Shown one piece after another: positions 508 to 57,952 of a DNA stretch of 64,000 bases. A model generated the notes under the pieces. That model was not told the origin of the DNA. It made no database searches and saw only the letters and a list, made by a program, of their open reading frames with translations. Position numbers and translations under genes: made by a program. The first letter of the stretch is position 1, and the number at the start of each line of letters is the position of its first letter. Origin of the DNA: Gammaproteobacteria bacterium (GTDB lineage: Bacteria > Pseudomonadota > Gammaproteobacteria > HK1); the NCBI GenBank assembly GCA_021773795.1, contig JAJFJT010000028.1, positions 1-64,000 on the forward strand, given 5' to 3'.

Positions 508-1185
508 CTAGCGCCTCCGCAGCAATTCCCTCAAGGGCGCCGGCTCAATCAAATCGATGCGCCGGCGCCGCAGCCGCAGCCAGCCACGGCGCTCAAATTC
601 CTTTAGCTGGCGGCTCACGACTTCCCGGGCGGTACCCAGCTCCACCGCCAGTTCGCGGTGGCTCAGCATCACCTCGCCGCCATCACTCATACGTTCCAGC
701 AGACACTGGGCGAGGCGGGCATCAACGCGCCCGAAGGCCACTTCCTCCACCCGTTGCATCAGGCCGGACAGCCGGATTGCCCACACATTAAAGATAAAGG
801 TGCGAAAAACTTCGGAGCTTTCCATCAAGGCACGGAAGCTCTTTCCCCGTAGCACCACGGCGGAGACATCTTCCTCTACAAGTCCCGCCGCAGCGTAGTC
901 CGTGTTACCCAGCAGGCAGGCGGTGGTGAGAATGCAGGTCTGGCCGGGGCCGACTCGGTAGAGCACGATCTCACGGCCACTTTCGCTGTTCTGGTGAACG
1001 CGCACGCTGCCGGCCACCACAAACAGATAATCGGAACAGGCGTCCCCGGGTTGAAAAAGGATGGTACCGGCGGGTGCGGTGATGGACTGTGTGCCAGCCT
1101 GTAATACCTCAAGATCTGCAGTGGAGAGATGCGAAAGGGCTGGAAACTCTAACAGCCACACGTCCCCTGTCGCAGTGGGGCTCAT
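508..1185 (-). CDS. Crp/Fnr family transcriptional regulator
   Basis: A 225-residue protein with an N-terminal cyclic-nucleotide-binding-like beta roll (about residues 20-120, PGDACSDYLFVVAGSVRV) and a C-terminal winged helix-turn-helix (HRELAVELGTAREVVSRQLK) of the Crp/Fnr type. It lacks the N-terminal cysteine cluster of true FNR, so an oxygen-labile iron-sulfur cluster is unlikely; the ligand cannot be told. It directly follows alanine dehydrogenase: the ald stop TAG overlaps a possible GTG start at 1188, and ATG at 1185 is the more likely start. The tight linkage suggests translational coupling and that it regulates ald or the downstream antiporter; this is inference. Confidence 0.88.
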   Translation of the reverse strand: MSPTATGDVWLLEFPALSHLSTADLEVLQAGTQSITAPAGTILFQPGDACSDYLFVVAGSVRVHQNSESGREIVLYRVGPGQTCILTTACLLGNTDYAAAGLVEEDVSAVVLRGKSFRALMESSEVFRTFIFNVWAIRLSGLMQRVEEVAFGRVDARLAQCLLERMSDGGEVMLSHRELAVELGTAREVVSRQLKEFERRGWLRLRRRRIDLIEPAPLRELLRRR

Positions 1186-1187
1186 CA

Positions 1188-2315
1188 CTAGCTGCCTACA
1201 TGCCGCAGCGCCTCAAGAGGATCCATCAACTCAAGGTCGTGAGCAGCGGCAACCTCCGGGGAAGTGATCTTGCCGGCACAGACATTTAGCCCGGCGCGCA
1301 GATGAGGGTCCGCCTCCAACGCCACTCGATAACCTCGTTCTGCCAGAGTCAACACATGGGGCAAGGTGGCGTTATTCAGGGCGAAGGTGGAGGTGCGGGG
1401 TACACCCCCCGGCATATTGGCGACGCAGTAATGGATCACCCCGTCCACCACGTAAGTCGGATCGGCGAAGGTGGTGGGGCGCGAGGTTTCGCAACAGCCA
1501 CCCTGGTCAATGGCCACATCGACAATCACCGAACCGGGCTTCATCCCCTTGACCATTTCTGCGGTGACCAGCTTGGGTGCAGCGGCCCCGGGGATCAGCA
1601 CGCCGGCGACTACCAGGTCGGCACTGAGCACGTGTTTTTCAACGGCGTCACGGGTGGAGTAGACGGTGTTGATATCACGCCCAAACTGTCGCCACAGTCC
1701 CCGCAGCACATCCAGCGAACGATCGATCACCACCACATCAGCACCCATGCCAACGGCGATATGGGTGGCACTGGTGCCCACCACGCCGCCACCGAGAATG
1801 ACCACCTTGGCCGGATCGACTCCAGGCACCCCGCCGAGGAGTACTCCGAGGCCACCGTGGGGTTCTTCCAGACAGTAGGCGCCGGCCTGAATCGCCATCC
1901 GCCCCGCCACCTCGGACATGGGCGCCAGCAAAGGCAGGCCACCTCGGGCTGAGGTCACAGTCTCATAGGCAATGCACACCGCCCCGGTATCCATAAGCGC
2001 CTGGGTAAGCACCCGATTGGGGGCAAGATGCAGGTAGGTAAACAGTACCTGACCCGGGCGCAGCAGAGCATATTCCGACTCTTGTGGCTCCTTGACCTTG
2101 ACGATCATATCCGCGCCAGCAAAAATCTCGGGGGCCGTTTCCACCACCTCGGCTCCGGCAGCACGATACTCCGCATCATCAGCACCAATGCCGGTCCCCG
2201 CATTGTGCTCCACCAGCACCTGGTGACCGTGATGCACCAGTTCCCGCACACTGGCAGGCGCCAGCCCTACCCGGTATTCCTGGGTCTTGATCTCCGTCGG
2301 TACGCCGATGTGCAT
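1188..2315 (-). CDS. ald: Alanine dehydrogenase
   Basis: A 375-residue enzyme interconverting L-alanine + NAD+ and pyruvate + ammonia + NADH. The N-terminus MHIGVPTEIKTQEYRV is typical of the family. Catalytic Lys75 (KVKEP) and His96 (YLHLAP) fall at the standard positions, and the NAD-binding loop is GGGVVGTSATHIAVGMGADV near residue 174. The ATG at 2315 has a GGGAG ribosome site 8 bases upstream. Length is normal (about 370). It is followed without a gap by a Crp/Fnr regulator. Likely role: use of alanine as a carbon/nitrogen source or NADH reoxidation under low oxygen. Confidence 0.96.
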   Translation of the reverse strand: MHIGVPTEIKTQEYRVGLAPASVRELVHHGHQVLVEHNAGTGIGADDAEYRAAGAEVVETAPEIFAGADMIVKVKEPQESEYALLRPGQVLFTYLHLAPNRVLTQALMDTGAVCIAYETVTSARGGLPLLAPMSEVAGRMAIQAGAYCLEEPHGGLGVLLGGVPGVDPAKVVILGGGVVGTSATHIAVGMGADVVVIDRSLDVLRGLWRQFGRDINTVYSTRDAVEKHVLSADLVVAGVLIPGAAAPKLVTAEMVKGMKPGSVIVDVAIDQGGCCETSRPTTFADPTYVVDGVIHYCVANMPGGVPRTSTFALNNATLPHVLTLAERGYRVALEADPHLRAGLNVCAGKITSPEVAAAHDLELMDPLEALRHVGS

Positions 2316-12164: not shown

Positions 12165-14903
12165 GTGAAGAAAGGCTTCTGGACTAAGGATTGGTTTGCG
12201 GGCGTCGTTATCACGCTGATTTTCCTCATTGCCGGGCGCGGTGAGTTCCTCCAGGGACTGGAACGAAGTGCCTACGATTTCGGTGTACGTGCCTCCACGG
12301 CAGAGCCCAGCGACAAGGTGGCGGTTATTGCCATCGATGACGAAAGCATCAACAACCTTGGACGCTGGCCTTGGCCCCGCGACCTCCACGCCCGCATTAT
12401 TGAGCTGCTGACCCAGGCCCAGGCCAAGGTCATCGGCAACACGGTCTTTTTCCTCGAACCACAGATCGATCCCGGTCTTGCCCATATCACCGAACTGGGC
12501 GCCTTCGTGGTGGATTCCCATCTCTACCAGGATGTACCCGGTGAAGTTGAATTACTCCAGGCCTTGATGGAGGAGCTGCCGGCTAACAACGAGGCTGTGA
12601 CCCAGCTCCGTGAATTTTTGGCTGACTCCGCGCTGGCCAAAAGCCTGCAAGATGAGGTGGATATCCTAGCGGCCGTGCTTGGCGAGGCGGAACAGGCCCT
12701 CAACACCGACCGCAAGCTGGCCGAGCAACTAGCAAATGCGGGCAATGCGATCCTGGCCATGCCCTTCGTTATTGGCGAGCCCCTGGGCAATCCGGACCAG
12801 GATTTGCCGGAATACGTGACCCGCAATGCGCTCCCCAACGTTATCGATAGAACGGAGGCCCTGGTCAACGGCCTGCTGCCCCTGCCCACGGTGGCCGCCA
12901 TTCCGCCCATAGAGGAACTGGGCACGACGGCACTGGCCATTGGTCACCTGAATGCCAACGTCGACGTGGACGGCGGCATCCGCTCCGAGCCGCTGGTATT
13001 ACGCTATTTCGATAACTATTACCCGTCCCTGTCGCTGCTGCTCGCGGCCAAAAGTCTTAATCTGAAGAACAAGGATATTGAAATCCGTCTCGGCGAAGGC
13101 GTGAGACTGGGCAATCTGCAGATTGCCACCGACGCTGCACTGCAGATGCAGACCTTCTTCTACAGCGAGATGGATGGCATCCCGGCCTTCTCGGTGGATT
13201 CCTTCTACGACGTCATCAGTGGCAAAATCCCGCCGGAAAAATATCGTGGCAAGGTGGTATTGATAGGGGCAACCGCAACCGGCGTAGGTAGCCCACAGGT
13301 CACACCGGTGTCTCCCGCCATGGCACCCGTGCTCACCCTGGCCCACTCGGTCTCCAGCATTCTGAATGAGGACTTCTTTGTGGTCCCGACCTGGGGCTAC
13401 TGGGCCGAGTTGGGTGCCTTACTGTTTATTGCCCTGTATCTCATTGCCCTGCTACCTCGGCTAAAAGCAGCCGCTGGCGCCTCTGTCACGGCGCTTTTGT
13501 TCATTGCCCTGATGGTGACCCATTTCGTCCTCATGACCACTCAGGGCATGTGGTTACAGCTCATGGTGCCAGCTTGCTTGCTACTCGGTGGCCATCTGCT
13601 ACTCACCACCAAGCGCTACTTGGCCACGGAGCGCGGCAAGCTCGTCTCAGACGCGGATTCCGCCGAAACCAATCGCATGCTGGGGCTCGCCTTCCAGGGA
13701 CAGGGCCAACTGGATATGGCCTTTGACAAATTCCGTAAGTGCCCGCTGGACGACTCGGTCATGGACCTGCTGTACAACCTGGCCCTCGACTATGAACGCA
13801 AGCGGCAGTTCAACAAGGCTGGGTCGGTGTACCAGTACATGGCCGACTTCAATCCGAAGTTCCGCGATCTGGAATCGCGCATGTCGCGCAGCAAGGTGAT
13901 GGAAGACACGGTAATGCTCGGCAGCGCCGGTGGTGGCGCCCAGGCAACCATGATCCTCTCCGGAGAGGGCGTACAAAAACCCATGCTCGGTCGTTACGAG
14001 GTAGAAAAAGAACTTGGCAAGGGCGCCATGGGTATCGTGTATCTCGGCAAGGATCCCAAGATCAATCGCGTGGTCGCGATCAAAACCATGGCCCTGGCCC
14101 AGGAATTTGAGGGTGACGAACTCCAGGAAGTGAAGGAGCGCTTCTTCCGCGAGGCGGAGACGGCGGGCCGACTCAACCATCCTAATATTGTCACCATTTT
14201 CGATGCCGGCGAGGAACACGATCTTGCCTATATCGCCATGGAGTTCCTCAAAGGTGGCGACCTCGCCCCTTACACCAAACCCGACAAGTTATTACCAGTT
14301 GCCACGGTCATCGATCTGGTGGCGCAATCAGCGGACGCACTGGACTACGCCCATAGCCAGAACGTGGTACACCGCGACATCAAGCCTGCTAACCTGATGT
14401 ACGACGCTGAAAGCGAGACCATGAAAATTACCGATTTTGGTATCGCCCGGATTACGGATTCCAGTAAGACCAAGACCGGAATGGTGCTGGGCACCCCCTC
14501 TTACATGTCTCCGGAGCAGCTTGCAGGCACTAAAGTGGGCGGCCATTCCGACCTCTTCTCTCTCGGGGTCATGCTGTTTCAGATGCTTTCCGGGCAACTG
14601 CCCTTTACCGGCGACTCCATGGCCACCCTGATGTACAAAATTGCCAATGACGCCCATCCGGATGTACTCGGCATACGCCCTGATCTGCCCCCTTGCCTCA
14701 AGGCCATCATCGACAAGGCCCTGAAAAAGGATTTGGAAAAACGCTATCAGCGGGGCTCCGAGATGGCACGCGACCTGCGGGCTTGTGCCTCACGCGTAGG
14801 TGCTGTCCCAAGCACCCCTGTCACCGATAACTCAAGCACCGCCACCACCGACAACGATGCGCAACCGCGTGGAGAGGATGGGCGATTTGTACCTCGTGGC
14901 TAA
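12165..14903 (+). CDS. CHASE2-sensor serine/threonine protein kinase
   Basis: A 912-residue membrane kinase. After one N-terminal membrane helix comes a large extracytoplasmic CHASE2 domain (about residues 30-400; VAVIAIDDESINNLGRWPWPRD is its hallmark), then three membrane helices (about 408-480), a short TPR-like stretch and a Hanks-type kinase from about 607: GKGAMGIVYLG, the Lys in VVAIKTMAL, HRDIKPANLM, DFGIARI and GTPSYMSPEQ are all intact, so it should be active. The C-terminus is a low-complexity Ser/Thr tail. GTG at 12165 is preceded by GGGGAG. The CHASE2 domain is unusually long, with an inserted helical segment. It is followed by a PP2C phosphatase 27 bp downstream. Confidence 0.93.
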   Translation: MKKGFWTKDWFAGVVITLIFLIAGRGEFLQGLERSAYDFGVRASTAEPSDKVAVIAIDDESINNLGRWPWPRDLHARIIELLTQAQAKVIGNTVFFLEPQIDPGLAHITELGAFVVDSHLYQDVPGEVELLQALMEELPANNEAVTQLREFLADSALAKSLQDEVDILAAVLGEAEQALNTDRKLAEQLANAGNAILAMPFVIGEPLGNPDQDLPEYVTRNALPNVIDRTEALVNGLLPLPTVAAIPPIEELGTTALAIGHLNANVDVDGGIRSEPLVLRYFDNYYPSLSLLLAAKSLNLKNKDIEIRLGEGVRLGNLQIATDAALQMQTFFYSEMDGIPAFSVDSFYDVISGKIPPEKYRGKVVLIGATATGVGSPQVTPVSPAMAPVLTLAHSVSSILNEDFFVVPTWGYWAELGALLFIALYLIALLPRLKAAAGASVTALLFIALMVTHFVLMTTQGMWLQLMVPACLLLGGHLLLTTKRYLATERGKLVSDADSAETNRMLGLAFQGQGQLDMAFDKFRKCPLDDSVMDLLYNLALDYERKRQFNKAGSVYQYMADFNPKFRDLESRMSRSKVMEDTVMLGSAGGGAQATMILSGEGVQKPMLGRYEVEKELGKGAMGIVYLGKDPKINRVVAIKTMALAQEFEGDELQEVKERFFREAETAGRLNHPNIVTIFDAGEEHDLAYIAMEFLKGGDLAPYTKPDKLLPVATVIDLVAQSADALDYAHSQNVVHRDIKPANLMYDAESETMKITDFGIARITDSSKTKTGMVLGTPSYMSPEQLAGTKVGGHSDLFSLGVMLFQMLSGQLPFTGDSMATLMYKIANDAHPDVLGIRPDLPPCLKAIIDKALKKDLEKRYQRGSEMARDLRACASRVGAVPSTPVTDNSSTATTDNDAQPRGEDGRFVPRG

Positions 14904-14930
14904 GCGCCACCGAAGCCCAAGATCGATAAT

Positions 14931-15752
14931 ATGAACCTGGAGGGAAAGCTTGAAATAGTGGGTGTTTCGGATGTGGGGAGCAAACGCGACCACAACGAGG
15001 ACAGTATCGGCACCGATACCCGCACGGGCATCGTGATTCTCGCCGACGGCATGGGGGGATATAAGGCGGGGGAAGTCGCCAGTGCCATCGCCGTTAACCT
15101 GATGATGGAGGAATTGCGTGCGGATCCCCGGGCCTTGGGTGCGGGAGAAATAGATGAGGAAAGCGGTTATAGCCAGGAAACCCTGCTACTCAAGGCGGCG
15201 GCAGAAAAGGCCAATGAGACCATCTACCAGACAGCCCAGAGCCAGCCACAATGTCGGGGCATGGGAACCACCCTGGTGGCAGCAGTGTTTTACAACAACC
15301 GCCTCAGCATCGCTCATGTGGGGGATTCCCGCCTCTACCGCGTACGCAGCAATGTGCTTGAACAAGTTACCGTTGACCATTCTCTGCTGCAGGAACTGAT
15401 CGACAAAGGTTTTTATACCCCGGAGGAAGCGAAGGAATCACTGAACAAAAATCTGGTCACCCGTGCGGTAGGTATCGACCAACACGTGGAGGCTGAGGTG
15501 CAGGAGGATGTGGCCCTGCCAAGAGATATCTATCTCCTCTGTTCCGATGGCCTTACTGACCTGGTGAACGATGAAGCGATCCACTTAACCCTGACGAAAG
15601 ACAGTGATAACCTTCAGCAAGCAGCGGAAGTCCTGGTGAAGATGGCCAATGATGCGGGCGGCAGGGACAATATTTCTGTCATCCTTGTGCGCATACTAAG
15701 GCCGTTTCCCGTGAAAACAGGCTGGTACACGAGATTATTTGACTGGTTCTAA
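14931..15752 (+). CDS. PP2C-family serine/threonine phosphatase
   Basis: A 273-residue Stp1/PppA-like phosphatase. Metal-binding aspartates are in RDHNED, ILADGMGGYKAGE, LLCSDGLTD and GGRDNISVILV; the segment AHVGDSRLYRVRS is also typical. It has no membrane segment, so it should act in the cytoplasm, most likely reversing phosphorylation by the kinase encoded just upstream. The two genes are 27 bp apart and surely co-transcribed. Slightly longer than minimal PP2C (about 240) through a C-terminal PVKTGWYTRLFDWF tail. Confidence 0.95.
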   Translation: MNLEGKLEIVGVSDVGSKRDHNEDSIGTDTRTGIVILADGMGGYKAGEVASAIAVNLMMEELRADPRALGAGEIDEESGYSQETLLLKAAAEKANETIYQTAQSQPQCRGMGTTLVAAVFYNNRLSIAHVGDSRLYRVRSNVLEQVTVDHSLLQELIDKGFYTPEEAKESLNKNLVTRAVGIDQHVEAEVQEDVALPRDIYLLCSDGLTDLVNDEAIHLTLTKDSDNLQQAAEVLVKMANDAGGRDNISVILVRILRPFPVKTGWYTRLFDWF

Positions 15753-15814
15753 ATATGCTACAACGGTCTTTACATGCTATTTATCGACGGGCGGAAAGCA
15801 TACGCCTGGTCCCG

Positions 15815-15840
15815 TTTTCCGGACTTCAGTGCCCGGAAAA
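15815..15840. other. Hairpin between the phosphatase and FHA genes
   Basis: An 8-bp stem TTTTCCGG/CCGGAAAA with a 10-base loop lies in the 178-bp gap. A second CCGGAAAA at about 15871 could compete for the same left arm. It may reduce read-through into the FHA gene or be a remnant of a small repeat. No clean T run follows. Confidence 0.35.
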
Positions 15841-15930
15841 TGCTATTTCAATCGCAAACCTTGTACATACTGCCGGAAAACGGAATTTTCAGCAGCCTGT
15901 TAACCCATCCCGGTTCGGGTAGGACGTCCA

Positions 15931-16653
15931 ATGCCTGCAAAGCTCATACTCAGCCTCAATGCATCGGTCCTCGGAGAGTTTGATCTCGAAAAGGAACGCA
16001 TAACTATCGGGCGGCGCCCCGACAACGATATACAAGTGGATAATCTTGCGGTCAGCGGCAAGCATTCTGCCATTATTACCATCCTGAGCGACTCCTTCCT
16101 GGAGGATTTGGATAGCACTAACGGCACTTACGTCAACGGCAAGCTCATCAAGAAGCATGCTTTGAAAAATAACGACGTTATCAGTGTCGGCAAACACGAA
16201 CTCAAATATGTCAATGATGCAGCCTCGGCCGATGAGGATGACTTTGAGAAAACCATGATCATTCGCCCGGGGATGGTGGGCCATGCGGCGGCAGCGGAAA
16301 AGGCTGCAGAAGCTCCCGGAACCAGCACTGGCGATGTGGCCGCCCCGGCACCAACACCCGGGGCTGCTGCCCAACCAGCACCGACCGCATTACCCCTGGG
16401 CAAGATTCGGGTATTAAATGGCCCAGCGACCGGCAAGGAACTGGAACTAAAGAAAGCATTGATCACTCTGGGGCGGACCGGCATCCAGGTAGCAGTGATT
16501 ACCCGCCGCCCACAAGGCTATTTCATCACCCACGTCGAGGGAACCCCTCCCATCGTCAACGGCAACTCTATTGGTGGGCAGGCCCACGCCCTGAAAGATC
16601 GTGACGTGGTAGAGCTGGCCAGCATCAAAATGGAGTTTTCTGTCGACAGATAG
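15931..16653 (+). CDS. Double FHA-domain protein
   Basis: A 240-residue soluble protein. Residues 1-95 form a clear forkhead-associated domain that binds phosphothreonine: ITIGRRPDNDIQVDN, VSGKHS and DLDSTNGTYVNG hold the conserved Gly-Arg, Ser-x-x-His and Asn-Gly. A Pro/Ala-rich linker follows, beginning DFEKTMIIRPG, which looks like a phosphorylatable Thr motif as in GarA/Fha proteins. Residues about 150-240 look like a second, degenerate FHA domain (LITLGRTGIQVAVITRRPQG) that lacks the clean Ser-x-x-His. It is probably the reader/effector of the upstream kinase-phosphatase pair. Confidence 0.9.
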   Translation: MPAKLILSLNASVLGEFDLEKERITIGRRPDNDIQVDNLAVSGKHSAIITILSDSFLEDLDSTNGTYVNGKLIKKHALKNNDVISVGKHELKYVNDAASADEDDFEKTMIIRPGMVGHAAAAEKAAEAPGTSTGDVAAPAPTPGAAAQPAPTALPLGKIRVLNGPATGKELELKKALITLGRTGIQVAVITRRPQGYFITHVEGTPPIVNGNSIGGQAHALKDRDVVELASIKMEFSVDR

Positions 16654-16684
16654 GGGTCTGTCGAACTTAGGACTGCTCTGCTGC
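16654..16684. repeat. Element II, end fragment
   Basis: Starting at the FHA stop, GTCTGTCGAACTTAGGACTG continues into CTCTGCTG. This matches, with few changes, the reverse complement of the right end of the 159-bp element at 55181-55339. Only about 30 bp remain. It lies in the convergent gap between the FHA and cyclase genes. Confidence 0.65.
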
Positions 16685-16749
16685 GGGAACTCGGTACAGG
16701 GAAGAGCTTCCTTCAGCTAAAATACCGGCCACAGGCCGTTATTCGGTGC

Positions 16750-18990
16750 TCACTTGGTCTGGTGGGTGAAGACCCCATCCCAATCGCTCCCGGGCGACTC
16801 TGCCCGGAAATGGGCAATACGCTCGGCATAGAGGTGGTACAGACCCCGTTCTGTGGTCTGCTGGAGATTGAGGAACTGGATCTCCGCCATATCCCAACTC
16901 TGCTGACGATAGAGTTTCAAGGCCTGTCGGTAGAGTTTTAGTTCATTGTGCAGCTCTTTGGATACCTCATCCTTCGGTCCCAGCGGCTCATAGATAGTAA
17001 CCGGCTTATCCTTCCCCTTCACTCGAACCTTATCCAACTCCCGGAATGCATAGCCTGACACTTCTGCCCGGGTGGTCTCATTGACGATCATATCCACCCC
17101 GTACTGCTTGGTCAGCCCCTCCAGACGTGAACCCAGATTGACCGCATCACCGAGCACGGTATAGGCCATGCGAAATTCGGATCCCATGTTGCCCACGCTC
17201 ATGGAGCCGGTATTGACCCCCACACCGATACGAATCTCTGGCCAACCCCGGGACTTGAACTCTGCATCCATGGATTTCAGCGTCGCCAGCATATCCAACC
17301 CAGCCTCCAGCGCATGCAGGGCATGCTCCGGATCGTGCAAGGGCGCACCCCAGAAACACATCACGGCATCCCCCATGTACTTATCGATGGTGCCCCGATG
17401 ATTGTGAATGACCCGCGTCATCGGGGTCAGAAACTCACTCATGAGCTGCGTGAGCTCCTGTGGATCCAGGCCTTCTGAAATGGTGGTAAAGCCACGCACA
17501 TCGGTAAACAGCACGCTCATCTCTCGGCTCTCACCTTCCAGCGAGAAGGCATCCGGGTCACCACTCATCTCATCTACCAGCTCAGGCGGTATGTATTGAC
17601 CAAACAGGCCAGCCAGTTGCCGTTTTCCCCGGGACTCGACAAAGTAGCCGTAAGACATATTGAACAGAAACAACAGCAGCACCATCAACAGGGTCGAGGC
17701 AATGGGCACCACCAGATTTCCATGTTCCCAGATAAGCAGGTTGGCCTTGCCCACCACCAACAGCAACGCCAACGTCGCCAAAGCGGCTCGTAACGGCCCC
17801 ATGAGCGGCAAGGCAATAATCATCAACAGGCCCGAAAGCACCAGGATGACGACCTCTGCCCCCAGAGTGTAGGCCGGATTTTCGCGCAGATTATTTTCCA
17901 GGATGCCGGCAATCAGATTGGCGTGGATTTCCACTCCCGGGAATATCCGTTGCACTGGCGAGGCCCTCAGATCAAGCAGACCGGGGGCCGAGGTACCCAC
18001 CAGCACAATGGCATTTTTTAGCTGTGCCGCATTCGCCTCGCCATTAAGCACGTCGGTCGCTGAAATATAGGGAAAACTGCCTTGTTTGCCACGGTAAGGC
18101 ACCAGAGTTCGTACTTGCTCATCCACCGGAACGACCCGGTCGCCAACCTGCAACCATTCCAGACCGGAATAACCCTTACCTACCCGTCCCTCGGTCGCGA
18201 AACCCGGCTCCACCCGGTCCACGCCCAGATAGGTGCGCGCTATCTTGAGTGCAAGAGATTCATAGTAAGCACCCTCGAATTCATAGATCATCGGAACCCG
18301 GCGCACGATACCGTCTGCATCCACAAAGGGATTGAAATGACCGGCACCCAGGGCCTTGGACTGAAGTGCTTCCAGGTTCGCCCCATAACCCCGAGCGCCA
18401 ATAAATTTGACCTTACGGCCCGTAAAGGCTCCGGCGGCGAAGGTAGCTTGGGGCAGACTGCCACTGGCAAGGGACTCCTCTGACTCACCCGCATCACTGA
18501 AGTAGTATCCAAGGATGACCCGGCGGTTCTCCATACTACTGGCAAACAGGGCATCCCGGTCCATTTGTGGGCGCACTGCTTCGAGATGCTGGCGAAAACG
18601 CTCATCCCCCTTGAAGGCCCCCTCGGAAAGCGCCTCCAGCACCTTGAAACCAGAGCTCTCATCCGGTTCCGCGAAGACCACGTCGAAGCCTACGAGATTG
18701 ACCCCGTAACGATCGAACAGCAGATCCATGAGCCGCGCAAGCTTGTCCCGACCCCAGGGCCAACGACCCTCTGCAGCGAGACTCTTCTCATCGATATCGA
18801 GGATAACAATGCCGCCGGGATGGGGCTTGTCGGGCATGGTGAAGCGCAGCCGTTCATCGTAGGCCTTGTGCTCCAGAGTGTTAATAAAACCCCACTCCTG
18901 GTAGCCAGAAACGTGACCGAGAAAAAACAGCAGAATGAGAAGACTAAGTCCCATGCGCGCCGCATGGTGTTTGAATAACTCCAGTATCAC
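16750..18990 (-). CDS. CHASE2-sensor class III adenylate/guanylate cyclase
   Basis: A 746-residue membrane cyclase. One N-terminal helix, an extracytoplasmic CHASE2 domain (IVILDIDEKSLAAEGRWPWG near its start), three membrane helices (about 385-460) and a C-terminal class III catalytic domain: metal Asp in FTDVRGFTT and DKYMGDAVMCFWG, then YTVLGDAVNLGSRLE with the transition-state Asn and Arg. The Lys/Asp pair favours ATP, hence cAMP. GTG at 18990 is chosen because AGGAGGAAG lies 5 bases upstream; a longer frame to 19047 has no such site. It converges on the kinase-phosphatase-FHA genes and shares their sensor type. Confidence 0.94.
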   Translation of the reverse strand: MILELFKHHAARMGLSLLILLFFLGHVSGYQEWGFINTLEHKAYDERLRFTMPDKPHPGGIVILDIDEKSLAAEGRWPWGRDKLARLMDLLFDRYGVNLVGFDVVFAEPDESSGFKVLEALSEGAFKGDERFRQHLEAVRPQMDRDALFASSMENRRVILGYYFSDAGESEESLASGSLPQATFAAGAFTGRKVKFIGARGYGANLEALQSKALGAGHFNPFVDADGIVRRVPMIYEFEGAYYESLALKIARTYLGVDRVEPGFATEGRVGKGYSGLEWLQVGDRVVPVDEQVRTLVPYRGKQGSFPYISATDVLNGEANAAQLKNAIVLVGTSAPGLLDLRASPVQRIFPGVEIHANLIAGILENNLRENPAYTLGAEVVILVLSGLLMIIALPLMGPLRAALATLALLLVVGKANLLIWEHGNLVVPIASTLLMVLLLFLFNMSYGYFVESRGKRQLAGLFGQYIPPELVDEMSGDPDAFSLEGESREMSVLFTDVRGFTTISEGLDPQELTQLMSEFLTPMTRVIHNHRGTIDKYMGDAVMCFWGAPLHDPEHALHALEAGLDMLATLKSMDAEFKSRGWPEIRIGVGVNTGSMSVGNMGSEFRMAYTVLGDAVNLGSRLEGLTKQYGVDMIVNETTRAEVSGYAFRELDKVRVKGKDKPVTIYEPLGPKDEVSKELHNELKLYRQALKLYRQQSWDMAEIQFLNLQQTTERGLYHLYAERIAHFRAESPGSDWDGVFTHQTK

Positions 18991-19045: not shown

Positions 19046-19072
19046 AATCAATGGGGTCAGACTCGATTGATT
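19046..19072 (+). repeat. RAYT-flanking 27-bp repeat, left copy
   Basis: A 27-bp sequence with core GGGGTCAGACTCGATTG between AATCAAT and ATTGATT-type arms. It is the exact reverse complement of 19835-19861. The two copies bracket the transposase gene. Confidence 0.9.
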
Positions 19073-19124: not shown

Positions 19125-19850
19125 ATGGCCCGACTACCCCGCTTCGTGTTGCCAGGACACCCACAGCATGTCGTGCTTCGTGGTAATAATCGGGAGCCTA
19201 TCTTCCACGCTGAGGCGGACTATCGGTTCTATCTGGAAAAACTTAAACAAGCCTGTGACAAACATGACTGCGCCGTACACGCCTATGCCTTAATGACCAA
19301 CCATGTCCATCTGCTGCTCACACCCTACAAAAATGATGGGCTACCCAAAACCATACAAATGCTTGGACGCTACTACGTCCAGTACTTTAATTATCGCTAT
19401 AAACGGACGGGAACTTTATGGGAAGGACGCTACAAGGCCACGTTAATAGACAGCGATGCCTATGCACTAACCTGCTACCGCTATATTGAACTCAACCCCG
19501 TCCGGGCTGCCGGGATGGTTAGCCATCCCAGCGAATACGCTTGGTCTAGCTATCGGTGCAACGCCTTGGGAGAAGCTGATTCACTGGTCGTTCCCCATGA
19601 ACTATACCAATCCCTCGGCGGTTCAAATTCGGAACGCCAAGGAGCCTACCGTGCCCTATTCCGAGCGCATATTGCTGATAAAACATTGGACGAAATCAGA
19701 GAGGCCACCAATAAAGCCTGGGTACTGGGCAGTGGCCAGTTCAAGGATAAAATAGACGCTCAACTCAATCGAGCCTCCGCCCCCAGAGCAAGGGGCGGAG
19801 ATCGAAAGTCAGATCAATATCAGGCTGGCAAGAGAATCAATCGAGTCTGA
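19125..19850 (+). CDS. REP-associated tyrosine transposase (RAYT, Y1/HUH type)
   Basis: A 241-residue IS200-like transposase. The family N-terminus MARLPRFVLPGHPQHVVLRG is followed by the HUH metal-binding motif H60-V-H62 (MTNHVHLLLTP), then YNRYKRTGTLWEGRYKATLI-type conserved residues and YRYIELNPVRAAGMV; the catalytic Tyr is expected near residues 113-120. Such enzymes cut and join single-stranded REP palindromes and usually exist once per genome rather than as true insertion sequences. The gene is bracketed by perfect 27-bp inverted repeats and its stop codon lies inside the right one. Confidence 0.95.
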   Translation: MARLPRFVLPGHPQHVVLRGNNREPIFHAEADYRFYLEKLKQACDKHDCAVHAYALMTNHVHLLLTPYKNDGLPKTIQMLGRYYVQYFNYRYKRTGTLWEGRYKATLIDSDAYALTCYRYIELNPVRAAGMVSHPSEYAWSSYRCNALGEADSLVVPHELYQSLGGSNSERQGAYRALFRAHIADKTLDEIREATNKAWVLGSGQFKDKIDAQLNRASAPRARGGDRKSDQYQAGKRINRV

Positions 19851-19861
19851 CCCCATTGATT
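19835..19861 (-). repeat. RAYT-flanking 27-bp repeat, right copy
   Basis: Exact inverted copy of 19046-19072. It holds the stop codons of two genes on opposite strands: TGA of the RAYT (19848-19850) and TGA of the PEP-CTERM gene (19837-19839). Confidence 0.9.
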
Positions 19862-20532
19862 CTCCATTGATTCTTGCGCGACACACCGATAGAAATTATT
19901 CCCAAAATCACAAGCAGCAGACTTGTGGGCTCAGGCACGTTGGCAGGCAACCCTGCAACTGTCAGATCCCAAGAATAGTTCCAGCCAACACGACCTGACC
20001 CCGCAAAGCCGAGACTCGCCGCTTCGGCGTACATTAAGTACGTCCCTGCGGAAAGTGTGATCGCTGGAATGTAGTTGTAAGAACCATTCACAAGAGGCGT
20101 AATAAATCCAGGATTTGCGGGTGAGCCCGTTCCTGTTTCATCCCAAATTCTAAAATCCACACCTACAGCGGAGTTGGTCTGAATCAAGTCAGTTACGGTG
20201 TATTGAAACGCGACCGTTGCAGTATCAGACAATGAAAATGTGAAGTGATCTCTTTCCCAGGTAAAAGGTGTCCCGCTTCGGGGATCATCCTTTTGAAAAA
20301 AGCTTGATCCCAATATTAGATTGGAACCATTGCTGAGCGCACCCACCGCTGTTCCGGTGTTAAGGGCACTAATACCGGATGACGGTGTAAAACCTGAAAG
20401 ATCTCCGTTTACTGCTTCGTCATATATGACACCTGCCGTGGCGTGGGTCGCGTGTAATAGGAAAGTTATGAAAATGATACGGGTTATAAAAGTTTGCTTT
20501 GCCATTGAGGCAAGGGCTCGCAAGTAGTCCAT
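19837..20532 (-). CDS. PEP-CTERM sorting-domain exported protein
   Basis: A 231-residue exported protein. A signal peptide is seen near ITRIIFITFLLHATHATAG, then a beta-rich domain of unknown function, and a C-terminal VPEPTSLLLVILGIISIGVS plus basic residues: the PEP-CTERM signal recognised by exosortase (EpsH/XrtA), which sends proteins to the cell surface or matrix. ATG at 20532 has AAGGAC 7 bases upstream; an in-frame extension to 20595 only reads through a repeat. The last ten residues (RINGVRLD region) are encoded by the RAYT-flanking repeat, so the native C-terminus has been replaced. No exosortase gene is in the window. Confidence 0.88.
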   Translation of the reverse strand: MDYLRALASMAKQTFITRIIFITFLLHATHATAGVIYDEAVNGDLSGFTPSSGISALNTGTAVGALSNGSNLILGSSFFQKDDPRSGTPFTWERDHFTFSLSDTATVAFQYTVTDLIQTNSAVGVDFRIWDETGTGSPANPGFITPLVNGSYNYIPAITLSAGTYLMYAEAASLGFAGSGRVGWNYSWDLTVAGLPANVPEPTSLLLVILGIISIGVSRKNQWRINGVRLD

Positions 20533-20555
20533 TGATAGTCCTTTATAGTCAGCGT

Positions 20556-20580
20556 TCAATGGGGTCAGACTCGATTGATT
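20556..20580 (+). repeat. RAYT-flanking repeat, third copy
   Basis: Twenty-five bases identical to the left copy (19046-19072), same orientation, 24 bases upstream of the PEP-CTERM start. The PEP-CTERM gene is thus bracketed by the same repeat as the RAYT gene. Confidence 0.88.
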
Positions 20581-20595
20581 TTCATCGTCAAGCAT

Positions 20596-52844: not shown

Positions 52845-53150
52845 CTCCTCGGAAGTTTGGCTCGTTTCGAAGCAGTGTAGCAGTCACCGGGGACAACACC
52901 CAGACGACATCTATCTTTAAGATCCAGGCTCCTAACAGCAAAGAGAATTTGTAAACCAACGCCCAATGCTCTATTTATAGAGGTGCGGGGTGAAAACTGC
53001 ATGCTTCGCACAAGAGGCACTGGAGACGGGATTGCCTGTTCTTGGCCACACCCCCGCCCTCGGTCCATATCTTTCTGTACATATTTCCCGTATAAAAAAA
53101 TGGTATTTCCGTCTAAATAAATCAAATCGCTTAAGGAAGGAGTGGGTACG
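52845..53150. other. 306-bp divergent region between gdhB and the TAXI genes
   Basis: No gene seen. It contains a T/A-rich stretch near 53090-53125 just before the ribosome site (GGAAGGAG) of the first binding-protein gene and TTTATAGAGGTGC at 52975, resembling a decayed end of element I. It must hold the promoters for both directions, but I cannot name them with confidence. Confidence 0.5.
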
Positions 53151-54119
53151 ATGAAAACTATAATGAAAACTTTCGCAACCGTACTGTTAGGCATGCTGGT
53201 AGGCATCCCGTCAGCACTGGCGGGCCAGACCTTTGTCACCATTGGTACCGGTGGCGTTACTGGCGTCTATTATCCGACCGGTGGTTCCATCTGCCGGCTG
53301 GTAAACAAGGGCCGCAAGGCACATGGTGTCCGCTGCACCGTAGAGAGTACCGGCGGCTCCGTGTATAACCTCAATACCATTCGCGCTGGTGAGCTCGATA
53401 TGGGGGTCGCCCAATCCGACTGGCAATATCACGCTTATCACGGCACCAGCAAATTCAAGGACAAGGGTGCATTCAAAGGTCTGCGAGCGGTCTTTTCGGT
53501 TCACCCGGAACCCTTCACCGTGGTCGCACGTGCTGACTCCGGAATCAAGAACTTCATGGACCTCAAGGGTAAACGGGTCAACATCGGCAACCCGGGTTCC
53601 GGTCAGCGTGGCACCATGGAAGTGGTCATGAAGGCCCTGGGCTGGAATAAGTCCACCTTCGCCCTGGCCTCGGAGCTAAAATCTGCAGAGCAATCCAAGG
53701 CCCTGTGCGACAACAAAATCGATGCCATGGTCTTTACCGTTGGTCACCCCAGCGGCTCCATCAAGGAGGCCACCACCTCCTGCGATAGCGTTATGGTGGA
53801 AGTCAGTGGTGCGGCCATCAACAAGCTGGTAGCAGACAACGACTACTACCGCACGGCGGTGATTCCGGGTGGCATGTATCGGGGTTCTCCCAACGACACC
53901 AAGACCTTCGGTGTGGGCGCAACCTTCGTAAGCTCCACCAAGACCTCGGCCAATACCGTCTATCACATCGTCAAGGGGGTGTTCGAGAACTTTGACAGCT
54001 TCCGTAAACTCCATCCGGCATTCGCCAATCTGAATAAAAAAGAGATGATCAAGGATGGTTTGTCCGCACCACTGCATGACGGTGCCGCCAAGTACTACCG
54101 TGAAGCAGGTTTGATGTAA
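53151..54119 (+). CDS. TAXI-family TRAP transporter solute-binding protein 1
   Basis: A 322-residue periplasmic protein. Signal peptide KTFATVLLGMLVGIPSALAG, then the TAXI hallmark FVTIGTGGVTGVYYPTGGSI and the segment LKGKRVNIGNPGSGQRGTME. It carries four cysteines (CRLVNKG, RCTVES, ALCDNK, SCDSVM) that could form two disulfides. Known TAXI proteins bind glutamate or 2-oxoglutarate-like acids. ATG at 53151 is preceded by GGAAGGAG. It is followed by a second binding protein and the fused permease. Confidence 0.94.
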   Translation: MKTIMKTFATVLLGMLVGIPSALAGQTFVTIGTGGVTGVYYPTGGSICRLVNKGRKAHGVRCTVESTGGSVYNLNTIRAGELDMGVAQSDWQYHAYHGTSKFKDKGAFKGLRAVFSVHPEPFTVVARADSGIKNFMDLKGKRVNIGNPGSGQRGTMEVVMKALGWNKSTFALASELKSAEQSKALCDNKIDAMVFTVGHPSGSIKEATTSCDSVMVEVSGAAINKLVADNDYYRTAVIPGGMYRGSPNDTKTFGVGATFVSSTKTSANTVYHIVKGVFENFDSFRKLHPAFANLNKKEMIKDGLSAPLHDGAAKYYREAGLM

Positions 54120-54220
54120 GTACACCTGCATTCGGCTGGTCCGGGGGAAAGGCCGCCATGGCCCTCTCCCGGATCACTGATTTCCTCCTTCTGCAAACGC
54201 GCTACAAGGAGTGACCGTCC

Positions 54221-55180
54221 ATGTGTACCCCTATATTTCGTGCCATCGCACTGACACTGGCACTTGTCGTCTCGATTGCCGTTCCGGCAGCCGAGGAAAT
54301 CCTTATTGGCACAGGCCATGCGGCCGGTTCCAACCACGCCCTCGGTCGCGCCATCTGCCGACTGGTCAATCTTCAGAAAAGTGGCCTGAGCTGTCGCGCA
54401 ATACCCACCACCGGCCCCTTGTTCAACCTCAGTGCCGTCCGGGATGGCGCACTGGAGTTCGCCATTGTTTCATCCGAGTGGCAGTTTCATGCCCACCACC
54501 ATAGTGGCCCGTTCCGCTACACCGATGGCAATTTTAATAATTTGCGAGCGCTATTTTCTGCCCACCCCAGCAGCCTTGCCCTGGTGGCAACACGGAACAC
54601 CGGCATAAAGGAACTCAACGATCTCAATGGTGGCCGTGTAAATATCGGCAATCCCGGCTCGCTGGAGCGCGCTACCATGGATATGGTGATGGCCGCCCGT
54701 GGCTGGAGTAAAAAGAATTTCTCACTCGCCGAGGAGCTACCCGCCAGTCAGCAATCCCTCACCCTGTGCCACAAAAAAATACAGGTAGCAGCTTACGTGC
54801 GGGCTCATCCCGATCGGGCGGTAATGAAAACGCTCCGGCTTTGTGACGCACATCTGGTCAATGTCAGTGGGCCCGCTATTAACGACCTGCTTAAAACCCG
54901 CCCTTATCTGACCGCCACGGAGATTTCGCAAGGTACCTACGGCCCCGTCTCCCGAGCCGTCCGCAGCTTTGGAACACGTGCAACCTTGATCACCTCGTCA
55001 GAAGTGAGTACCGAGACTGCGGGGGCCCTGGTCTCTGCAGCTTTCTCTAATCTGCGGCGCCTACGCAAAATGCACCCCGCCTTCAGGGAGCTGGATGCCA
55101 GCACCATGGCAAAAGACACCTTGAGCGCACCCTTGCACGAAGGGGCTCAACACCACTTTCAGCAACACCACATCCGCTAG
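54221..55180 (+). CDS. TAXI-family TRAP transporter solute-binding protein 2 (diverged paralogue)
   Basis: A 319-residue paralogue of the preceding protein: ILIGTGHAAGSNHALGRAIC, CRAIPTTGPLFNLSAVRDG and GGRVNIGNPGSLERATMDMV align with it, and all four cysteines are kept. The binding loop has changed from GTGGVTGVYYPTG to GTGHAAGSNHALG, so ligand preference probably differs. A signal peptide (ALTLALVVSIAVPAAE) and AAGGAG upstream are seen. Element II lies between this gene and the permease. Confidence 0.92.
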   Translation: MCTPIFRAIALTLALVVSIAVPAAEEILIGTGHAAGSNHALGRAICRLVNLQKSGLSCRAIPTTGPLFNLSAVRDGALEFAIVSSEWQFHAHHHSGPFRYTDGNFNNLRALFSAHPSSLALVATRNTGIKELNDLNGGRVNIGNPGSLERATMDMVMAARGWSKKNFSLAEELPASQQSLTLCHKKIQVAAYVRAHPDRAVMKTLRLCDAHLVNVSGPAINDLLKTRPYLTATEISQGTYGPVSRAVRSFGTRATLITSSEVSTETAGALVSAAFSNLRRLRKMHPAFRELDASTMAKDTLSAPLHEGAQHHFQQHHIR

Positions 55181-55339
55181 GAGCCTGTCGGACTTAGGCG
55201 ATCGTAGCGAGGGGAAGCTATTTTGAGACAGATTTTTCGGTCATTTGAGGATAATAGTCAGTCTATTAGACGAAAAGGAGCGAGAAATATGGCCAAAATA
55301 GCTTTTCCACAGCAGAGCAGTCCTAAGTCCGACAAGCTC
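55181..55339. mobile_element. Element II, full copy (159-bp long hairpin)
   Basis: Terminal repeats GAGCCTGTCGGACTTAGG and CCTAAGTCCGACAAGCTC with inner matching arms (GGGGAAGCTATTTTGAGAC / GCCAAAATAGCTTTTCC) centred on AATAGTCAGTCTATT. It starts at the base after the second binding-protein stop codon. Same length and centre as 36775-36934. Non-coding. Confidence 0.82.
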
Positions 55340-55363
55340 ATAGCACTATGGAGTTAAGCGCCG

Positions 55364-57952
55364 ATGAATAATAACGACACCACACAGGCATCCCGTGAAG
55401 AACTGGAGGAAATGATTGCCCAGTCTGATACCGGTGCGCGTAGCCCGCTCGGGCTTGCCGGCAAGATCCTCATCGGCGTACCCCTGATCTGGTCGCTATT
55501 CCAGCTCTGGTACGCCTCGCCCCTGCCTTTTTTGTTGCATTTCGGCATACTCAATGATACCGAAGCGCGGGCCATTCACCTGGCCTTCGCAATCTTTCTG
55601 GCCTTTGCTGCCTACCCGGCGTTGAAGAGTTCTCCGCGCGACCACATCCCGATACAGGACTGGATCTTTGCCCTTGTGGGCGCCTTTGCCGCCGCCTATC
55701 TCTACACCGCTTATGAAGCCCTCGCCGAGCGTCCCGGCGCACCCATTACCTTCGACTTGATCGTGGCAGCGTGCGGCATGGTACTACTGCTGGAGGCAAC
55801 CCGGCGGGCGCTGGGGCCGCCACTGATGGTGGTCTGCGCGGTATTCCTGATCTACACCTTTTTTGGCGCCTACATGCCCGATGTAATCGCCCACAAAGGG
55901 GCCAGTCTCTCTAAGACCATGTCTCATCAGTGGCTTGGCACCGAAGGTGTCTTTGGCGTTGCCCTCGGCGTCTCCACCAGCTTCGTCTTTCTATTCGTGC
56001 TCTTTGGTTCGTTACTGGACAAGGCGGGTGCGGGCAATTATTTCATTAAAGTTGCCTTTTCGCTGCTCGGCCACATGCGCGGCGGCCCCGCCAAGGCGGC
56101 CGTGGTGTCCTCGGGTTTGAGCGGCCTCATCTCCGGCTCCTCCATTGCCAATGTGGTCACCACCGGCACTTTCACTATCCCGCTGATGAAACGGGTGGGC
56201 TTTCCCGGCACCAAGGCCGGCGCGGTAGAGGTAGCCGCCTCCACCAATGGCCAGCTCACTCCGCCCATCATGGGTGCTGCAGCCTTCCTGATGGTTGAAT
56301 ACGTGGGGGTCTCCTACGTTGAGGTCATTAAGGCGGCGATTCTGCCAGCACTCATTTCCTATATTGCGCTGGTCTACATCGTTCATCTGGAAGCCCTGAA
56401 GGCCAATATGCAGGGTCTGCCCAGGCGCCACGAACGCACCTTCGCTCAAAGCCTGTTTGCCTATAGCACCACCTTCATCGGCGTGGCGATCGTCACCGCC
56501 CTGGTCTACTACGGCATCGGCTGGGCCAAGGAAGCCTTTGGCGATGCAGCAATCTGGATCGTTGGCATCAGCGTGCTGGTCTCCTACGTGGGGCTGCTGT
56601 GGTACGCCGCACACTTTCCGGAACTGGAGATGGATGATCCCAATTCAGCGGTACTGGAACTGCCCGAGGTCGGACCCACGGTCAAATCCGGTCTGTATTT
56701 CCTGCTGCCGGTGGTGATCCTGGTGTGGTGCCTGACCGTGGAGCGCTTTTCCCCCGGACTCTCCGCTTTCTGGGCTACGGTCTTCATGATTTTTATTCTC
56801 CTGACCCACCGTCCCGTGCTTGCCCATTTTCGGGCTCAGGGCGGGGTATCCAATGCTGCCCGACAGGGTGGGCAGGATCTGTTTGACGGCCTGGTTGCCG
56901 GCGCACGCAATATGATTGGTATTGGTGTAGCCACGGCTGCCGCCGGCATCGTCGTGGGCACGGTCACCCTTACCGGTATCGGACTGGTGATGACCGAATT
57001 TGTCGAGTTCATCTCCGGCGGCAACATCATGCTGATGCTCGGCTTCACCGCCATCATCAGCCTGATCCTGGGCATGGGCTTGCCCACCACCGCTAACTAC
57101 ATCGTGGTGTCCACCCTGATGGCTCCGGTGATCGTTACCCTCGGAGCCCAAAGCGGGCTCATCGTTCCCCTGCTCGCGGTACATCTGTTCGTGTTCTATT
57201 TCGGTATCCTCGCCGACGATACACCGCCCGTAGGTCTGGCCGCTTTTGCCGCTGCCGCCATCGCCCAGAGTGATCCGATTCGCACCGGCATCCAGGGATT
57301 TACCTACGATATCCGTACCGCCATTCTACCTTTCCTGTTCATCTTCAATACCCAGTTACTACTCATGGGTATCGGCAGCTGGTTCGAGCTACTGGTTACC
57401 ATTGCCAGTGCGGTGACCGCCATGCTTATCTTCGCCGCTGCCACCCAGGGCTACTGGCTGGTGCGTAGCCGTTGGTGGGAAACCGCTGCCTTGCTGCTCA
57501 TCGCCTTCACCCTATTTCGACCCGGCTTCTGGTGGGACAAGGTGTACCCACCGATGGAATCGGTCGCGGCAACACAGATCGAGGAAGTCGCCGGGAAGCT
57601 GCCCGACGGGCTAGCGCTACGCATGGTGGCCGAAGGGGAGACCCTGGATGGTGACAAGGTTCGTAAAACGGTACTCCTCAGCCTGCAGCCAGGTACCGGC
57701 GGCAAAGAACGACTTGCCCAGGCCGGATTGGAAATGCGCACGGAAAATGGTCGGATGTTCGTAGATAACCTGGTGTTTGGCAGTGCCGCTGAAAAGGCCG
57801 GGCTCGACTTTGACTGGGAAATCCATAGTGTCGAGAAAAACGTAGATCGCCTACCTAAACAGCTGATGTTCATCCCCACCTTACTACTCCTTGCCGGCGT
57901 TGGTGCCATGCAACTCGGAAGACGTCGTAAACAGGCTGCTGTAAGCGCCTAG
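55364..57952 (+). CDS. Fused TRAP transporter permease (4TM/12TM) with DUF3394 tail
   Basis: An 862-residue inner-membrane protein joining the small (DctQ-like) and large (DctM-like) TRAP subunits, the usual form with TAXI binding proteins. About 16-18 membrane segments; SGLISGSSIANVVTTGTFTI and LGMGLPTTANYIVVSTLMAP mark the DctM fold. The last 130 residues form a DUF3394, PDZ-like domain (GSAAEKAGLDFDWEIHSVEK) ending in one more helix. It drives uptake with an ion gradient. ATG at 55364 with GGAG upstream. Confidence 0.95.
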   Translation: MNNNDTTQASREELEEMIAQSDTGARSPLGLAGKILIGVPLIWSLFQLWYASPLPFLLHFGILNDTEARAIHLAFAIFLAFAAYPALKSSPRDHIPIQDWIFALVGAFAAAYLYTAYEALAERPGAPITFDLIVAACGMVLLLEATRRALGPPLMVVCAVFLIYTFFGAYMPDVIAHKGASLSKTMSHQWLGTEGVFGVALGVSTSFVFLFVLFGSLLDKAGAGNYFIKVAFSLLGHMRGGPAKAAVVSSGLSGLISGSSIANVVTTGTFTIPLMKRVGFPGTKAGAVEVAASTNGQLTPPIMGAAAFLMVEYVGVSYVEVIKAAILPALISYIALVYIVHLEALKANMQGLPRRHERTFAQSLFAYSTTFIGVAIVTALVYYGIGWAKEAFGDAAIWIVGISVLVSYVGLLWYAAHFPELEMDDPNSAVLELPEVGPTVKSGLYFLLPVVILVWCLTVERFSPGLSAFWATVFMIFILLTHRPVLAHFRAQGGVSNAARQGGQDLFDGLVAGARNMIGIGVATAAAGIVVGTVTLTGIGLVMTEFVEFISGGNIMLMLGFTAIISLILGMGLPTTANYIVVSTLMAPVIVTLGAQSGLIVPLLAVHLFVFYFGILADDTPPVGLAAFAAAAIAQSDPIRTGIQGFTYDIRTAILPFLFIFNTQLLLMGIGSWFELLVTIASAVTAMLIFAAATQGYWLVRSRWWETAALLLIAFTLFRPGFWWDKVYPPMESVAATQIEEVAGKLPDGLALRMVAEGETLDGDKVRKTVLLSLQPGTGGKERLAQAGLEMRTENGRMFVDNLVFGSAAEKAGLDFDWEIHSVEKNVDRLPKQLMFIPTLLLLAGVGAMQLGRRRKQAAVSA

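Follow-up and report, generated by a model that had tools for sequence, protein, structure and literature searches.

A recurrent CHASE2 kinase, phosphatase, FHA protein and cyclase gene cluster suggests a link between threonine phosphorylation and cAMP in Gammaproteobacteria

Can reversible threonine phosphorylation and cAMP synthesis, usually treated as separate systems in bacteria, be joined in a single membrane module? The question is raised by four intact genes in a 64,000-nucleotide stretch of gammaproteobacterial DNA (hereafter the window): a CHASE2 Ser/Thr kinase, a PP2C phosphatase and a double-FHA protein in a row on the + strand, and a CHASE2 class III cyclase that converges on them from the - strand. 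Matches to Pfam and family profiles, together with residue alignments, bear out the four genes, coordinates and functional residues described in an earlier note on this DNA. The kinase and PP2C genes are separated by 27 bp and the PP2C and FHA genes by 178 bp, while the stop codons of the FHA and cyclase genes lie 96 bp apart; being on the opposite strand, the window cyclase is not co-transcribed with the trio. By eye, the GTG starts of the kinase (12165) and the cyclase (18990) are preceded by good Shine-Dalgarno sequences, and a scan for promoters and terminators gave nothing better than shuffled sequences. Kinase and cyclase are the only CHASE2 proteins of the whole 2.56 Mb genome, which has three more class III cyclase matches lacking CHASE2.

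The kinase (12165..14903, + strand, 912 aa) has a CHASE2-TM-(TPR-like)-Ser/Thr kinase architecture (PF05226, E=1.3e-50; PF00069, E=2.3e-56) with intact VAIK, HRD and DFG motifs, and its catalytic residues are invariant in an alignment of 41 relatives. The catalytic domain is PknB-like and its nearest solved kinases are of the Stk1/PknB type. It is not a PASTA kinase, since it lacks PASTA domains and scores 301 bits against model NF033483 (cut-off 450 bits). Two near-invariant threonines lie in the linker that joins the TPR-like region to the kinase domain: one in the motif ME[ED]T-x-x-L (codon 13908..13910, + strand; Thr in 37/41 kinases), with a hydrophobic +3 residue in a Gly-rich linker that otherwise varies among the 41 kinases, and one in the motif T-[LM]-x-L (codon 13947..13949, + strand; Thr in 40/41). 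The PP2C phosphatase (14931..15752, + strand, 273 aa) belongs to the Stp1/PrpC type (247.4 bits against NF033484, cut-off 230), with metal-binding aspartates invariant in 41 relatives.

The earlier note's description of the third gene product (15931..16653, + strand) as a double-FHA protein holds for its fold: the AlphaFold model has two separate FHA-like beta-sandwiches (pLDDT about 90) joined by a disordered linker. Only FHA1 is canonical, however (PF00498, E=1e-20), with GR, SxxH and NG motifs that are all present and invariant in relatives; the second domain has no Pfam call and lacks the SxxH motif, making it a degenerate FHA domain. Just after FHA1, the linker carries the motif FE[KQR]TM[IV]I (FEKTMII in the window), whose Thr108 (codon 16252..16254, + strand) is a predicted phospho-switch site; the threonine is found in 39/41 FHA proteins and the +3 Ile in 37/41. 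The protein matches GarA/OdhI both by sequence and by fold (Foldseek) and shares with that type the canonical phospho-binding residues and an adjacent conserved threonine, scoring 50.8 bits against the OdhI family model NF041660 (cut-off 200 bits). FHA domains favour phosphothreonine (pThr) with a hydrophobic or acidic residue at +3, and the linker threonines of the kinase and the FHA protein therefore look like docking and switch sites. On this basis we predict that the FHA protein docks at the two kinase threonines and operates a GarA-like switch.

The cyclase (16750..18990, - strand, about 746 aa) is a CHASE2-3TM-class IIIb adenylyl cyclase by its domains (PF05226, E=2e-57; PF00211, class III catalytic domain, E=3e-23) and putative specificity. 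The two metal-binding aspartates (D516 and D560), the base-selecting Lys and Thr (K556 and T630) and the transition-state Asn and Arg (N637 and R641) are all present (residue numbers count from the TTG at 19047); the catalytic residues are conserved in 33/34 sequences and align with CyaB and CyaC. Lys and Thr at the base-selecting positions form the class IIIb adenylyl pattern, and by its residues the enzyme falls into class III and its IIIb adenylyl type. The AlphaFold model is confident over the CHASE2 and TM part only.

To see how the four genes are arranged elsewhere, we searched 369 evenly sampled gammaproteobacterial genomes with PF05226. A CHASE2 protein was present in 201 of them, and a CHASE2 kinase and CHASE2 cyclase lay within about 12 kb of each other in 31 of the 369, a hand count that omits G050, in which the cyclase sits beside a decayed cyclase copy. 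Linked loci were retrieved and mapped with profiles of all four proteins. The mapped pairs each join a kinase to a cyclase, and PP2C and FHA genes accompany the kinase in constant order, except in L154, where neither lies between kinase and cyclase; the cyclase is shortened in L144, and the reading frame is interrupted for the kinase in L157 and for the cyclase in L158. The linkage spans about 20 families (20 by family label, f150 being a kinase-cyclase pair without PP2C or FHA) and four geometries. The convergent arrangement of the window recurs in f1, f12, f43, f71, f92, f120, f133, f134 and f140. In a tandem arrangement (f49, f154, f108, f200 and f202) the FHA stop falls shortly before the cyclase start, with gaps of only 8-90 bp. 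A second tandem form (f57, f87, f94 and f155) has a 2-8 kb spacer with barA-like, pdxJ or cysM genes, and in f116 the cyclase is divergent from the kinase. In L155, from the cultivable gammaproteobacterium HTCC5015, trio and cyclase are about 8 kb apart. The member of the trio nearest the cyclase is the FHA gene in most linked loci.

Profile searches of the same sample with strict thresholds found the FHA protein and the cyclase together in 32 genomes (5.8 expected), and in 27 of these 32 the pair lay within 12 kb, compared to about 0.3 expected by random placement; with the loosest thresholds, the two co-occurred in 41 genomes (20.7 expected, p=2.5e-8). These count tests overstate independence, because linked genomes share descent, and most of the sequences from which the FHA and cyclase profiles were built came from linked loci, a bias from which the PF05226 survey is free. 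The association is strong, yet not obligatory: many close cyclases stand apart from any trio, as do several trios from any cyclase, so each half can work on its own. Solitary cyclases have recurrent neighbours of their own (clusters 2, 3 and 7). Beyond this class, one further family, f207, often has the FHA-type trio but no CHASE2 cyclase with it; in one such genome the kinase gene of the trio is immediately preceded by a gene for another kind of class III cyclase, which lacks CHASE2 (L202:5127-6257).

Some loci are extended by genes for cAMP removal and binding. In L208 and L210 the order is kinase, PP2C, FHA, cyclase, class II-like cAMP phosphodiesterase and cNMP/rhodanese protein. The product of the fifth gene of L208 has a metallo-beta-lactamase fold and matches class II cAMP phosphodiesterase; the gene overlaps that of the cyclase by 4 bp, and the cNMP-binding/rhodanese gene follows after a 12-bp gap. 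The phosphodiesterase gene also adjoins the cyclase gene in L206, L144 and L147, and most loci of the tandem lineage have a cNMP/rhodanese gene close to the kinase or cyclase. The six-gene order of the two genomes would constitute a near-complete circuit for writing, erasing and reading cAMP. The same L208 operon continues after the cAMP genes (14246-18227) with a protein combining GAF and, by eye, a type II/IV secretion-like ATPase, and then a GAF/HD-GYP protein, a hint of pilus or secretion and c-di-GMP outputs. In L206 (6406-12312) a kinase without CHASE2 precedes PP2C, FHA, a CHASE2 cyclase and a class II-like phosphodiesterase homologue; this kinase, which has lost CHASE2 and the linker, has the sequence EEFEKT in its C-terminal tail.

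The genome of the window encodes comparable components elsewhere: a canonical CRP (L172), which lies on this contig but beyond the window, at about 78.2 kb; a cNMP/rhodanese protein (L174); and a phosphodiesterase homologue 42% identical over its full length. The Crp/Fnr protein within the window (508-1188, - strand) is an unlikely candidate: by eye it has no GE...RSA/RxA cAMP-binding signature and, lacking the canonical cAMP phosphate-binding residues, is probably not a cAMP reader.

The best explanation for these observations, in our judgement, is a two-input membrane module that couples reversible threonine phosphorylation to cAMP, and we consider the case for it evenly balanced. What we observe directly are the genes with their residues, the conserved threonine motifs, the repeated linkage, and the operon that also contains the phosphodiesterase and cNMP genes; from these we infer every phosphorylation and binding step below, as well as the contact between FHA protein and cyclase. 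The CHASE2 kinase would sense an envelope signal and autophosphorylate its activation loop and two linker threonines, upon which FHA1 of the adaptor would dock on the phosphorylated linker. The kinase would then phosphorylate Thr108 of the adaptor, whose FHA1 could bind its own pThr108 in a GarA/OdhI-like manner, with PP2C resetting both kinase and adaptor. Perhaps by way of the conserved, degenerate FHA2, the adaptor's state may raise or lower the activity of the cyclase, to which its own CHASE2 domain would supply a second, different input. The resulting cAMP would be read by CRP and the cNMP/rhodanese protein and removed by the class II-like phosphodiesterase. Somewhat more tentatively, this may be a widespread new system in which a eukaryote-like kinase and phosphatase control an adenylyl cyclase via a dedicated double-FHA adaptor, turning phosphothreonine into a cAMP signal, with complete operons adding a phosphodiesterase and a cAMP effector. 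The joint model is weakened by the occurrence of solitary halves, by the opposite orientation of the window cyclase and by the lack of any conserved pThr/FHA-ligand motif outside the catalytic fold in an alignment of the cyclase and its relatives. Distance-matrix partial correlation also gave no clear positive co-variation between FHA2 and parts of the cyclase, which argues against it.

The earlier note had proposed that kinase and cyclase carry the same CHASE2 sensor and that their two outputs may read the same or a related external signal; in a same-ligand model of this kind, both domains bind one external signal and the two outputs fire together. CHASE2 is a sensor domain whose ligand is mostly not known, and these two proteins, which score 172.8 and 195 bits against PF05226 (gathering score 26.3), are the sole CHASE2 proteins of this genome and widely co-linked, as would be expected of such an arrangement. 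Aligned with each other, however, the two domains are related (E=1e-22) but only 23% identical, and they fall into two separate clades of the CHASE2 tree with a support of 99. Their co-variation is no greater than the background of other module parts (distance-matrix partial correlation, partial r=0.12), and the linked kinase of L206 has no CHASE2 domain at all. A common ligand is thus improbable, and the data are better and more simply read as two distinct inputs that feed a single set of outputs. A sequence search turned up no solved relative of CHASE2, and neither did a fold search with the cyclase model, whose 50 best hits matched the catalytic part or whole cyclases. What stands of the joint system proposed earlier is the non-chance linkage of the cyclase and the plausible role of the FHA protein as cross-talk node, by way of a putative physical coupling to the cyclase, while the shared sensor falls away.

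Trio and cyclase might also be separate branches serving one envelope process, a shared regulon with no physical cross-talk in which proximity was selected only for co-inheritance or co-expression. We think this possible, if on the unlikely side. It accounts well for the solitary halves, for the cyclase lacking a pThr motif and for about 12 convergent loci in which an MCE/Mla-type lipid transport operon (MlaE permease, ATPase, MlaD and PqiC-like lipoprotein) ends with the cyclase gene and the trio forms an operon of its own; it accounts less well for the short-gap tandem operons, in which the cyclase gene immediately follows that of the FHA protein, and for the FHA gene being the trio member closest to the cyclase in most loci. 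That the neighbourhood reflects chance or history alone, with no functional link, is very unlikely. Some lineages do share more of their surroundings (pdxJ, barA-like and cysM genes where the tandem loci have a spacer), so that part of the proximity is inherited, but neither the spread over four geometries and about 20 families nor the roughly 0.3 close pairs expected against the 27 observed fits this account, and the survey instead favours a joint system. A type VI secretion (T6SS) threonine-phosphorylation pathway of the PpkA/PppA/Fha type, which has the same kinase-PP2C-FHA gene set in outline, has next to no probability here: the FHA protein scores 37.4 bits against the TagH-type model TIGR03354 (cut-off 120.25 bits), and a search of the whole genome found no VipB/TssC sheath gene. 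The absence of type VI secretion genes, noted earlier for the cluster, thus extends to the genome, and we reject a T6SS link for it.

The two-input module has partial precedents. The GarA/OdhI systems of Actinobacteria (PknB/PknG-GarA and OdhI; 6i2p, 4qcj) are the closest solved relatives by sequence and fold, sharing a PknB-type kinase, a PP2C and an FHA protein with a conserved threonine beside FHA1. Their threonine motif is N-terminal to the FHA domain, whereas that of the module is C-terminal, in the linker to a degenerate second FHA domain, and they control 2-oxoglutarate metabolism, with no cyclase. A precedent for FHA control of an enzyme that makes a cyclic nucleotide is Bdellovibrio DgcB, in which FHA recognition of a phosphopeptide, DgcB's own tail, gates synthesis (PMC6733907); there, the FHA domain is fused to a GGDEF c-di-GMP enzyme, in contrast to the separate adaptor, class III cAMP cyclase and dedicated kinase and phosphatase of the module. 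The alphaproteobacterial CyaD1/CyaD2/CyaK pathway of S. meliloti, with the outer-membrane partner NsrA and Clr, is, in the literature searched, the one pathway with a CHASE2 cyclase for which we found a known stimulus. Like the module, it has a CHASE2 class III cyclase whose cAMP is read by a CRP-family regulator, a combination also present in the window genome, but the paper (PMC13001267) describes no Ser/Thr kinase, PP2C or FHA partner and contains no mention of FHA, phosphatase or serine. T6SS PpkA-PppA-Fha sets (e.g. PMC5995506) likewise have kinase, PP2C and FHA in a row, with a different FHA protein, whereas the module is linked to a cyclase in a genome without T6SS. Cyanobacterial CHASE2 Ser/Thr kinases share the N-terminal CHASE2 domain of the window kinase, and the passages of PMC2176072 that we examined report no FHA/cyclase module with them. 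All parts of the module come from known families, and we found no published description of the kinase-PP2C-FHA-cyclase cluster in the open-access literature, where the joint module and full cAMP operon appear undescribed. The recurrent four-gene linkage, in several gene orders and about 20 families, suggests such an undescribed phosphorylation-cAMP signalling system.

If this reading is true, bacteria would have in this module their own equivalent of the eukaryotic cross-talk between kinases and cyclases. The module would also give CHASE2 a tractable context, with candidate threonine sites, a four-gene set and informative neighbours; the latter (MCE/Mla lipid transport, HD-GYP and type II/IV secretion-type ATPase) point to envelope or surface processes.

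Several further features of these loci deserve mention. MCE/Mla operons ending in a CHASE2 cyclase are found in L133, L135, L136, L137, L142, L146 and L148, among others, and genes for an RsbU-like phosphatase and a STAS protein often lie upstream of them. In the window, an IS200-like (Y1) transposase gene, possibly of the RAYT type (19125-19850, + strand), adjoins the start of the cyclase, followed by a gene for a secreted protein (19837-20595, - strand) with no Pfam match and a PEP-CTERM-like signal at its end (VPEPTSLLLVILGIISIGVSRK). Farther along (53142-57952, + strand), two TAXI-type solute-binding proteins precede a fused TRAP transporter, as judged by eye.
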